Positions 34,392-36,331 of a DNA stretch of 48,457 bases are shown here, one piece after another (the first letter of the stretch is position 1; each line of letters starts with the position of its first letter). The translations under genes and the position numbers were made by a program. The stretch spans positions 24,369 through 72,825 of the forward strand of contig JAFMNE010000006.1 of NCBI GenBank assembly GCA_017859395.1. The letters are read 5' to 3'. This DNA is from Ilumatobacteraceae bacterium (lineage in GTDB: Bacteria; Actinomycetota; Acidimicrobiia; Acidimicrobiales; Ilumatobacteraceae). The notes under the pieces were generated by a model that searched no databases, was not told where the DNA came from, and saw only the letters and a program-made list of their open reading frames with translations.

Positions 34392-35105
34392 TCACACGGT
34401 GGTGGAACAGATCGCGTCACCGAGGGCCACACTCGACTCGGTGACGACCTCACCGATGCCATCGGTGTACAACTCTGAGAGCATGCCGCGCACCATGCCC
34501 CGATCGACGGCACAGATCACTGGGTGTTCCATGGCCACATCGCCGAATGGGCAGTGGTTGTTGATGATGCGCAACCGGTCGTTGCGGTCATCGGCATGAG
34601 CGGCGAAACCGTGCGCGGTCAGCGCATCGGCCACCGCGCCAATGGCGGCTCGTAGAGATCGGTGCCCGCTCTCGAGCGCGTCGCCGGTGAGGCCTGCAGC
34701 AAGCACCCGTCCATATTCCGCACCGACTTCCTCGGCGAGTTGCTCGGCGTCATCGCGCGGCAGTCGGGTGAGCGCACGCCCGAGAAGTGACAGCACAAGG
34801 TCGTCGCTGCGCACCGGAAACTCTGGGTGCGCGGCAGCCACAGCCACGTACCGCTTCGACGGACGTCCAGCGCCAGACGCATTCGGGCGACCCGATTGGA
34901 TCTCCACGTACCCACCAGCGGCCAGTTTCTCGAGGTGGTGGCGAGCAACATTTGTATGAATGTCGACCTCGGCCGCCACCATCGACGCCGTCACTCCGTC
35001 ATCGCCCGAGGACCGCACGAGAAGGTACACGTGGCGCCGTGTCGGATCACCGAATGCATCGGTGATCGCCGACACGGTCGCGTTGAATGACGTGTCGGTC
35101 GCCAT
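34392..35105 (-). CDS. SufR-like iron-sulfur-sensing HTH repressor
   Basis: A 237-residue regulator. A winged helix-turn-helix spans about 10-90 (recognition helix near 50-60, wing GRPSKRYV). The C-terminal half carries Cys185 (NNHCPFG), Cys198 (PVICAVD) and Cys233; the CPF motif and C-x12-C spacing resemble SufR/Rv1460 proteins, which bind a [2Fe-2S] or [4Fe-4S] cluster and repress the suf iron-sulfur assembly operon. Here it diverges from an Mrp Fe-S carrier gene rather than suf. TATGAT 8 nt before ATG 35105 implies a leaderless message, with a strong dyad just upstream that probably serves for autorepression. Confidence 0.8.
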   Translation of the reverse strand: MATDTSFNATVSAITDAFGDPTRRHVYLLVRSSGDDGVTASMVAAEVDIHTNVARHHLEKLAAGGYVEIQSGRPNASGAGRPSKRYVAVAAAHPEFPVRSDDLVLSLLGRALTRLPRDDAEQLAEEVGAEYGRVLAAGLTGDALESGHRSLRAAIGAVADALTAHGFAAHADDRNDRLRIINNHCPFGDVAMEHPVICAVDRGMVRGMLSELYTDGIGEVVTESSVALGDAICSTTV

Positions 35106-35113
35106 GAGCCCAA

Positions 35114-35119
35114 ATCATA
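35114..35119 (-). promoter_or_regulatory. -10 box of the SufR-like gene (leaderless)
   Basis: TATGAT on the minus strand, ending 8 nt before the ATG. The matching -35 position falls on the dyad at 35129-35152. Confidence 0.45.
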
Positions 35120-35128
35120 GACGACGGT

Positions 35129-35152
35129 TTTCCACTACCGGCGTAGTGCAAA
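35129..35152. promoter_or_regulatory. Candidate SufR-type operator dyad
   Basis: The core CACTACCGGCGTAGTG has perfect 6-bp arms around CGGC. One mismatch further out, TTT and AAA extend the symmetry to TTT-N-CACTAC-N4-GTAGTG-N-AAA, 18 symmetrical bases in 24. It lies in the 74-bp gap between the SufR-like regulator and mrp, where it would cover the -35 region of the regulator and the upstream region of mrp. Binding is inferred. Confidence 0.6.
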
Positions 35153-35179
35153 TGGTGCCGGACTTGCCACAATGGGGCC

Positions 35180-36331
35180 ATGGCCCCCACCCCCGAACAA
35201 CTCGTTGAGGCGCTCCGCCCGGTCGAAGACCCCGAACTGCACCGCTCCATCGTCGATCTCGGCATGCTGCGCCGCGCCGAGATGCGCGACGGTGGCGTCG
35301 CCGATATCTGCGTTGCGCTCACCGTGGCTGGGTGCCCGCTGCGCAACGAGATTCAACGCCGCGTGAACGATGCCGTGGTGACCCTCGACGGTGTCACCTC
35401 GGTCGATCTGGAATTCACCGTGATGAACGATGAGGAACGGGCCGCGGTACGCGAAATGCTGCACGGCGCCCCAGGGTCGGCCTCGGCCGGCCAGGGCCAT
35501 GCGCACGGCCACGCTGAGGGGCGCGCCATCCCATTCGCCGAGTCCGGATCGCGCACACGGCCACTGCTCATCTCGTCGGGCAAGGGCGGGGTCGGCAAGT
35601 CGAGTGTCACCACCAACCTCGCTGTCGCTCTCGCCCAGCAGGGCCACTCGGTCGGCGTCGTCGACGCCGACATCTACGGATACTCGATCCCGCGCATGCT
35701 CGGCACCGACCGCCAGCCCACCGTGATCGACGAGATGATCGTGCCGCCCGAGCAGTGGGGTGTGCGGTGTATCTCCATCGGCTATTTCGTCCCCGAGGGC
35801 GAAGCGGTCGTCTGGCGCGGGCCCATGCTGCACAAGGCCCTCGAACAGTTCCTCACCGACATCTTCTGGGATGAACCGGATTTCTTGCTTGTGGATATGC
35901 CACCTGGAACGGGCGACATTGCGCTCAGCCTCGCCCAGTACCTGCCACGCGGCGAGGTATTCGTCGTGACCACGCCGCAGCCCGCAGCACAGAAGGTCGC
36001 GCGGCTCTCTGCTGCGATGGCCAGCAAGGTCAACCTTCCGGTGCGCGGTGTTATCGAGAACATGTCGTGGTTCACCGGCAATGACGGCACCCGCTACGAA
36101 CTGTTCGGATCCGGCGGGGGTGCGGAACTGGCCGCCGAACTCGATGTGCCGCTGCTCGGTCAGTTGCCTCTCGTGCCCGAGTTGCGTATCGGCGGCGACG
36201 AGGGACGTCCAATCACCGCCGTCGAACCGGATTCCGAGGCCGCCCAGATGTTCCGCGACATCGCTGAGCGCATCGCGGTCGACATGCGGCCGAAGAAGGT
36301 GTTCAGCCCACAGTTGAAGGTCATCGACTGA
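35180..36331 (+). CDS. mrp: Mrp/ApbC-family iron-sulfur cluster carrier ATPase
   Basis: A 383-residue protein with an N-terminal MIP18/DUF59 domain (about 5-85, with the conserved AGCPL cysteine at 52), a short His-rich linker (107-112), and a deviant P-loop NTPase (GKGGVGKS at 134-141, VVDADIYGYSIPRMLG, LVDMPPGTGD). Mrp/ApbC proteins carry Fe-S clusters to target enzymes. The C-terminal CxxC used by many homologues to hold the cluster is absent (ENMSWFTGNDGTRYELFG). CACAAT lies 6 nt before the ATG. The divergent SufR-like gene suggests iron-sulfur-dependent control. Confidence 0.94.
   Translation: MAPTPEQLVEALRPVEDPELHRSIVDLGMLRRAEMRDGGVADICVALTVAGCPLRNEIQRRVNDAVVTLDGVTSVDLEFTVMNDEERAAVREMLHGAPGSASAGQGHAHGHAEGRAIPFAESGSRTRPLLISSGKGGVGKSSVTTNLAVALAQQGHSVGVVDADIYGYSIPRMLGTDRQPTVIDEMIVPPEQWGVRCISIGYFVPEGEAVVWRGPMLHKALEQFLTDIFWDEPDFLLVDMPPGTGDIALSLAQYLPRGEVFVVTTPQPAAQKVARLSAAMASKVNLPVRGVIENMSWFTGNDGTRYELFGSGGGAELAAELDVPLLGQLPLVPELRIGGDEGRPITAVEPDSEAAQMFRDIAERIAVDMRPKKVFSPQLKVID

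Follow-up and report, generated by a model that had tools for sequence, protein, structure and literature searches.

The divergent gene pair and its intergenic dyad

The window, i.e. the whole stretch of 48,457 nucleotides that was analysed, contains a gene for a SufR-like regulator and an mrp gene in divergent orientation, separated by 74 bp. The locus comprises the following features:

34392..35105, minus strand: SufR-like winged helix-turn-helix regulator P0001, with C185-X12-C198-X34-C233 (open reading frame and Pfam)
35114..35119, minus strand: putative -10 element TATGAT of the regulator, which ends 8 nt before the regulator ATG (sequence reading)
35129..35152, no strand: putative operator dyad TTT-N-CACTAC-N4-GTAGTG-N-AAA (inverted repeat and recurrence of the pattern)
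35168..35173, plus strand: putative -10 element CACAAT of mrp, 6 nt before the mrp ATG (sequence reading)
35180..36331, plus strand: Mrp/NUBPL-family P-loop ATPase P0002, with an N-terminal DUF59/SufT-like domain, conserved C52 and Walker motif, and no CxxC (open reading frame and Pfam)

The dyad, which a first-pass annotation had recognised between the two genes, was recovered at 35129-35152, which leaves 23 bp of the gap on the regulator side and 27 bp on the mrp side. Its 10-nt arms (35129-35138 and 35143-35152) are 90% complementary, with 4 nt between them, and form the only inverted repeat reported in the gap. When up to 3 mismatches are allowed, the full pattern has this single match in the window, and none in 100 shuffles.

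The hexamer TATGAT (35119-35114, minus strand) and a 17-nt spacer place the -35 element of the regulator at 35142-35137, which is the centre of the dyad. The earlier claim that the dyad covers the -35 region of the regulator is therefore right by geometry, for a promoter that is itself inferred. The right arm of the dyad provides TAGTGC (35144-35149) at the presumed -35 position of mrp, with an 18-nt spacer, and CCACAATG/CCAGAATG recurs in many of the regulator-mrp gaps examined. A scan for consensus promoters detected none, which is why all promoters are treated here as putative.

The divergent arrangement is conserved in all 30 loci that were fetched and in 77/77 named loci with mrp in range (3 further named loci have no mrp within the stretch covered). 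The neighbours outside the pair drift: a zincin gene lies next to mrp in 23 of 66 loci, and argS is found 3' of the regulator in 12 of 71. In the window, the gene of a zincin-like metallopeptidase (PF06262, 36338-36676) lies 6 bp 3' of mrp, and is perhaps a member of the mrp operon.

Relation of the regulator to SufR

P0001 is a protein of 237 residues, translated from an ATG. The features that had been read in it, a helix-turn-helix domain and C185-x12-C198 plus C233, are confirmed: Pfam HTH_20 matches residues 19-65 with 32.6 bits, and C185, C198 and C233 are the only cysteines of the protein. They align with cysteines of the canonical-looking SufR rows L268, L271 and L275, in an alignment from which Rv1460 is absent. 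The arrangement C-X12-C-X24..44-C is present in 80/80 named regulator loci.

A close relative of P0001 (E 1e-52 or better) was found in 56 of 61 genomes; it is missing in G001 (58% complete), G027, G040, G051 and G055. Where their annotation is more precise than Actinomycetota, the best 80 named relatives are mostly labelled Ilumatobacter(aceae) or Acidimicrob-, with a few odd labels (e.g., Acidobacteria and Bifidobacterium breve). The regulator is assigned to Acidimicrobiales on the basis of these names.

The score of P0001 against the NCBIfam model TIGR02702 is 29.3 bits, below the cut-off of 178.8. The canonical-looking actinobacterial SufRs L268, L271, L275 and L211 also fall short of this cut-off, with 77-93 bits, so that the score alone is not decisive. 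In a tree of 78 rows, from which ten duplicate or overlapping regulator rows were omitted, P0001 falls in a clade of 38 rows (support 96/84) that does not include the canonical SufR rows (100/99), which are stand-ins for SufR: L268, L271 and L275 were picked by their cysteine spacing and L211 by its adjoining sufB, and none is a named SufR. L211 forms a long branch and has no CxxxC, and the label "sufBadjacent" is loose, L212 and L213 being 2.5 and 6 kb from suf genes. The deeper branching order is unsure because some branches are long.

The ligand spacing of SufR is CxxxC-X12-C-X27-C, with residues 171, 175, 188 and 216 in Corynebacterium glutamicum (PMC11995493), and C-X12-C-X13-C-X14-C in cyanobacteria (PMC8593673). 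P0001 has no cysteine ahead of C185, hence no upstream CxxxC, and none between C198 and C233, the last ligand spacing being X34. The SufR operator described in cyanobacteria and Streptomyces avermitilis is CAAC-N6-GTTG (PMC8593673, PMC11995493), and this sequence occurs nowhere in the window. The name "SufR-type" that P0001 had been given thus holds for its homology to SufR and its three cysteines, but the label of canonical SufR is rejected on the basis of the TIGR02702 score, the separate clade, the missing CxxxC and X34 spacing, and the different operator.

The three C-terminal cysteines of Rv1460 (C203, C216 and C244) are required for complementation, and in M. smegmatis reporter assays the cysteine variants repressed their own promoter as well as the wild type did (PMC6034842). 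Cluster-dependent repression is therefore not simple even in SufR. For M. tuberculosis, repression has been ascribed to holo-SufR and derepression to apo-SufR (PMC9045647, PMC10848736).

The Mrp-family protein

P0002 is a 383-residue protein composed of an FeS_assembly_P domain (DUF59) and an Mrp/NUBPL P-loop domain (PF10609, 4.5e-86). Its deviant Walker A motif, GKGGVGKS at position 134, and the DUF59 cysteine C52 are both kept in 77/77 relatives. A CxxC motif is lacking in P0002 and in the aligned portions of all 77 relatives. The Mrps of the other-class pairs L259, L260 and L264 carry CPHC.

The CxxC pair of Mrp proteins is presumed to hold a bridging cluster between the two subunits of the dimer (PMC8593673). 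Since this cluster-ligand motif is absent, a function of P0002 as an Fe-S carrier is not established. The first-pass annotation had described an Mrp/ApbC Fe-S carrier: the Mrp P-loop domain stands, while the carrier role is weakened. P0002 is as likely to be an ATPase or a SufT-like maturation factor as an Fe-S carrier.

Recurrence of the dyad at suf genes

The exact core CACTAC-N4-GTAGTG occurs at two places in the 2.25-Mb source genome (95 contigs), and the reversed pattern at none. The second exact site, ATTTGCACTACCCACGTAGTGCAAAT, is on contig 85, before sufC-sufS-sufU (named from TIGR01978, TIGR01979 and TIGR01994, all over their cut-offs), where 27 bp separate the end of the 24-bp dyad from the start of sufC. 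With up to 3 mismatches, the full pattern gives three places in the source genome, the third directly before sufD (reversed control, 0), and purine/pyrimidine freedom adds a fourth, before sufB on contig 93. The search for the dyad upstream of suf genes therefore succeeds, with an exact site before sufC-sufS-sufU and weaker ones before sufB and sufD. The compact two-gene switch that had been proposed at this locus is not borne out, since the same site also precedes these suf genes. As for the control of mrp, which the first-pass annotation regarded as a different wiring from that of SufR, mrp is among the genes carrying the site, together with suf genes.

The source genome contains two SufC paralogues (L003:332-1105 and L155:3394-4188), both over the TIGR01978 cut-off, one with sufS-sufU and the other with sufB-sufD; 50 of 61 genomes hold at least two matches to the first. 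Between sufB and sufD there is a Cys-containing open reading frame of 119 residues (L155:1572-1931) with no Pfam or NCBIfam match.

Among the 61 genomes, the exact core has 10 sites in 8 genomes, which were assigned by hand to regulator/mrp (2), sufC (7) and sufD (1); the reversed control of this core gives 37 places. The looser pattern TTNNCACTAYN4RTAGTGNNAA, with at most 1 mismatch, gives 66 places in 43 genomes, against 2 for its control. This pattern was drafted when the sufC and regulator sites were known, and the sufB sites were new to it. As many as 62 of the 66 places are at regulator/mrp, sufB, sufC, sufD or sufS: a script assigned 61 (sufB 27, sufC 23, regulator/mrp 10, sufD 1), and one further place precedes a SufS-like open reading frame in G054. 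The four others are inside an open reading frame in G017, before one shared hypothetical gene in G006 and G011, and in G010, which has a near-identical site.

In 20 suf loci (L003, L155 and L157-L174), the places with up to 3 mismatches, among the matches listed (at most 3 per locus), are all before sufB, sufD or sufC. A scan of about 150 bp around the sufC start, in which a best match always exists, gave best matches with 5 mismatches or fewer of 20 in 25 of 30 cases, L051, L052, L055, L061 and L064 having more.

A palindromic matrix was built from 39 suf sites (22 sufC and 17 sufB, a subset of the sites found), with no regulator/mrp site. In 71 of 77 named loci, the best window of this matrix is in the regulator-mrp gap, compared to 1.3 expected, the gap making up on average 1.7% of the positions. 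A recognisable dyad is absent from the gap in the six other loci (L104, L110, L115, L128, L131 and L133), and also from that of L037. Several of these seven gaps have in common a stretch which contains TTAGGCTAA.

The site is less regular outside the family. Among the genomes with the regulator, a place with at most 1 mismatch to the loose dyad occurs at suf or mrp in 31 of the 35 that belong to the family, versus 11 of 21 elsewhere in the order, and 14 of the 56 have no such place (4/35 in the family, 10/21 elsewhere in the order). Because the genomes are related, the counts do not represent independent events. When other families of the order and class are considered, the matrix score is positive and first-ranked in 8 of 14 regulator-mrp gaps (L289, L291, L293, L298, L237, L238, L239 and L241), where the site often reads TTCTACCTAY-N4-RTAGGRGAAA. 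There is no credible site in the six other gaps (L217, L287, L295, L297, L242 and L243), that of L217 being ranked first with a negative score. Based on the 8/14 gaps and 11/21 genomes, the operator has drifted or is missing in some members of the order.

Genomes that lack a close relative of the regulator

In G027, G051 and G055, none of the eight mrp or suf loci (L284, L283, L281, L279, L280, L282, L211 and L285), in the parts scanned, has a place with up to 3 mismatches or a positive matrix score. G051 and G055 are outside the family, where absence of the site is common even when the regulator is present. In G027, mrp1 is retained (78% identical) but the regulator is not, and a different sufB (L211) is flanked by a SufR-type gene that belongs to the canonical group. 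Since the SUF genes of G027 have apparently been replaced, its lack of sites points to co-replacement and not just to site loss.

G040, in which no close relative of the regulator was found, has a perfect site at sufC; since mrp1 is missing too, the absence of the regulator probably reflects an assembly gap. In G057 (L286), the matrix reaches a maximum of 15.5 somewhere in the suf locus, where the mismatch scan found no place.

Proposed circuit and alternative explanations

P0001 is likely to be an autoregulated, cluster-sensing repressor of a dispersed Fe-S assembly regulon which includes mrp. The conservation of the dyad at regulator/mrp, sufB, sufC and sufD, together with the divergent pair in 77/77 loci, suggests that Acidimicrobiales probably have such a dispersed SUF regulon. 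The regulon appears real, conserved and probably autoregulated, with a non-canonical SufR-like regulator, a new operator and mrp among its members. This proposal draws directly on the protein homology, the conserved cysteines, the divergent pair, the conserved sites and the absence of sites in the regulator-less loci examined.

A P0001 dimer would bind TTTNCACTAY-N4-RTAGTGNAAA sites that overlap the promoters, presumably active, of its own gene, mrp, sufB, sufD and sufC-sufS-sufU. The aligned cysteines suggest that P0001 holds a cluster. When clusters are sufficient, a cluster on C185, C198 and C233 would keep P0001 bound and the expression of the target genes low. If clusters become scarce or suffer damage, apo-P0001 would leave the dyad, and the assembly genes and mrp would rise together. 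The attribution of repression to the holo form and of release to the apo form, which the first-pass annotation had also made, is by analogy with SufR (PMC6034842, PMC8593673, PMC9045647).

A rather unlikely alternative is that the signal sensed by a dyad-binding P0001, through its three cysteines and a V4R/TRAPP-like domain, is zinc, a small ligand or thiol oxidation and not an Fe-S cluster. In its favor is an AlphaFold model (38 sequences, pLDDT 71, pTM 0.53), in which an ArsR-like winged helix precedes a domain that resembles TRAPP/V4R structures. V4R/TRAPP-like domains bind lipids, zinc and aromatics. The C-terminal half of the model resembles TRAPP/Bet3 and the phenol-sensor domains of MopR/PoxR with Z values of 10.3-12.4, which can reflect a common arrangement in a model of moderate confidence; the comparison of residues ~96-237 with TPC6 gives a VIA Z of 12.4 over 136 residues, with an rmsd of 2.9, at the same pLDDT of 71. 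The best Foldseek match of the model has an E of 1.8e-3, and a sequence search found no solved structure of the SufR type (best match E 0.11, xylose isomerase). However, Fe-S assembly is the very process that the predicted regulon serves. In addition, the three cysteines align with those of canonical-looking SufRs, their counterparts in Rv1460 being needed for function (PMC6034842).

It is improbable that the dyad is the site of another regulator, such as the Rrf2/IscR-type protein at G000:C60, and that the SufR-like gene is merely one of the targets. IscR sites also resemble ACT..AGT dyads, the source genome has one Rrf2 protein over the cut-off, with a C-X5-C pair, and some genomes that have the SufR-like gene do not show the dyad. 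But no dyad was found within 3 mismatches at the Rrf2 gene of the source genome, and Rrf2 proteins over the cut-off are encoded by G027, G051 and G055, three genomes in which the dyad was not detected. Conversely, dyads are present in G008 and G009, which have no Rrf2 match, and in G010, G014 and G017, where the match is weak; a missing Rrf2 may be a gap, since four of these five genomes are drafts below 90% completeness. In addition, most members of the family have the dyad right at the SufR-like gene. The co-occurrence across genomes thus makes an Rrf2 protein less likely as the dyad binder, although the Rrf2 protein of the source genome may be a further regulator.

In the source genome, the dyad lies over the -35 positions of the regulator, mrp and sufC, as assigned by sequence reading, and overlaps the apparent extended -10 TGTTACTAT of sufB and the apparent -10 TAGTAT of sufD. 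The overlap with TGTTACTAT would explain the conserved left half, TTGTTACTAT, of the sufB site. The dyad covers promoter-like elements at its targets and therefore fits repression. It is very unlikely that it is an activator site from which the regulator switches suf and mrp on: activators can also sit around the -35, as the dyad does at the presumed mrp and sufC promoters, but the overlaps with the -10 at sufB and sufD do not favor this explanation, and the described SufR homologues are repressors. Finally, a chance palindrome with no function is rejected, given the absence of matches in the 100 shuffles and the recurrence at these genes across dozens of genomes.

A second regulator-Mrp pair

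The source genome has a second pair, which spans L156:1826-3740 on contig 34: an Mrp gene (C34:5915-7000) is divergent from the gene of a three-Cys regulator (L156:3087-3740), which is 33% identical to P0001. The gap of this pair carries a different dyad, approximately TTACACGG-N6-CCGGTAA, as do several other second pairs of Acidimicrobiales. In some genomes, no regulator was found beside the second mrp. Divergent pairs are present in at least 16 of 181 genomes sampled outside the class, including at least 12 of the 13 genomes of family f38 with an Mrp match, and the first pair in at least 15 of 17 sampled members of the class; all these counts were made by eye from coordinates and are minima. 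In L308 (G229), a site of the first type, TTCCACTATGGCCGTAGGGGAA, precedes the second mrp, which hints at cross-control.

Tentatively, the regulator and Mrp may form a co-evolving, duplicated sensor-client module, in which the CxxC-less DUF59-ATPase would load or repair the cluster of the regulator, each copy would have its own operator, and a V4R/TRAPP-type fold would have become the Fe-S site. Related divergent pairs are present in additional families of actinobacteria beyond the class. The regulator would then report the state of the maturation step and set the levels of SUF and Mrp. In M. tuberculosis, the DUF59 protein SufT reportedly associates with SufR, and its depletion reportedly raises suf expression (PMC9045647), which makes the idea of cluster loading plausible.

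Significance and comparison with known systems

The control of SUF has been described mainly in cyanobacteria and a small number of actinobacteria. For the latter, no more than two SufRs are named as described in a 2021 review (PMC8593673). In the open-access literature, covered mostly by titles and the beginnings of abstracts, nothing was found that links SufR to the control of mrp or to Acidimicrobiales. The present analysis predicts a near-complete circuit of Acidimicrobiales, with its regulator, operator and targets. It would add a new regulator clade and a new operator to Fe-S homeostasis, and tie an Mrp-family gene to the SUF regulon. The role of CxxC-less Mrp proteins would become testable.

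P0002 resembles the maturation factors Mrp/ApbC/Nbp35 and SufT (DUF59), with a DUF59 domain that contains C52 and an Mrp P-loop ATPase domain with GKGGVGKS, but it is devoid of the CxxC cluster ligands of ApbC-type carriers. Its gene is opposite that of the regulator, with an operator common to both, unlike in these systems.

The regulators of the IscR/Rrf2 type (E. coli IscR and Myxococcus RisR) are described as controlling Fe-S assembly operons, as is predicted for P0001. They belong to a protein family unrelated to the SufR-like regulator, and their palindrome is different.

P0001 and the SufRs of cyanobacteria, Streptomyces avermitilis, Corynebacterium and Mycobacterium (Rv1460) have in common a winged-helix N-terminus, three aligned C-terminal cysteines, and sites, which are predicted in the case of P0001, at suf promoters and at their own promoter. 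Unlike SufR, P0001 belongs to a clade of its own, has no CxxxC, and has C-X12-C-X34-C where SufR has C-X12-C-X27-C. Its gene adjoins mrp, whereas that of SufR sits within the suf operon, and the operator is CACTAY-N4-RTAGTG instead of CAAC-N6-GTTG. The predicted regulon of P0001, unlike that of SufR, is spread over several loci, mrp included.
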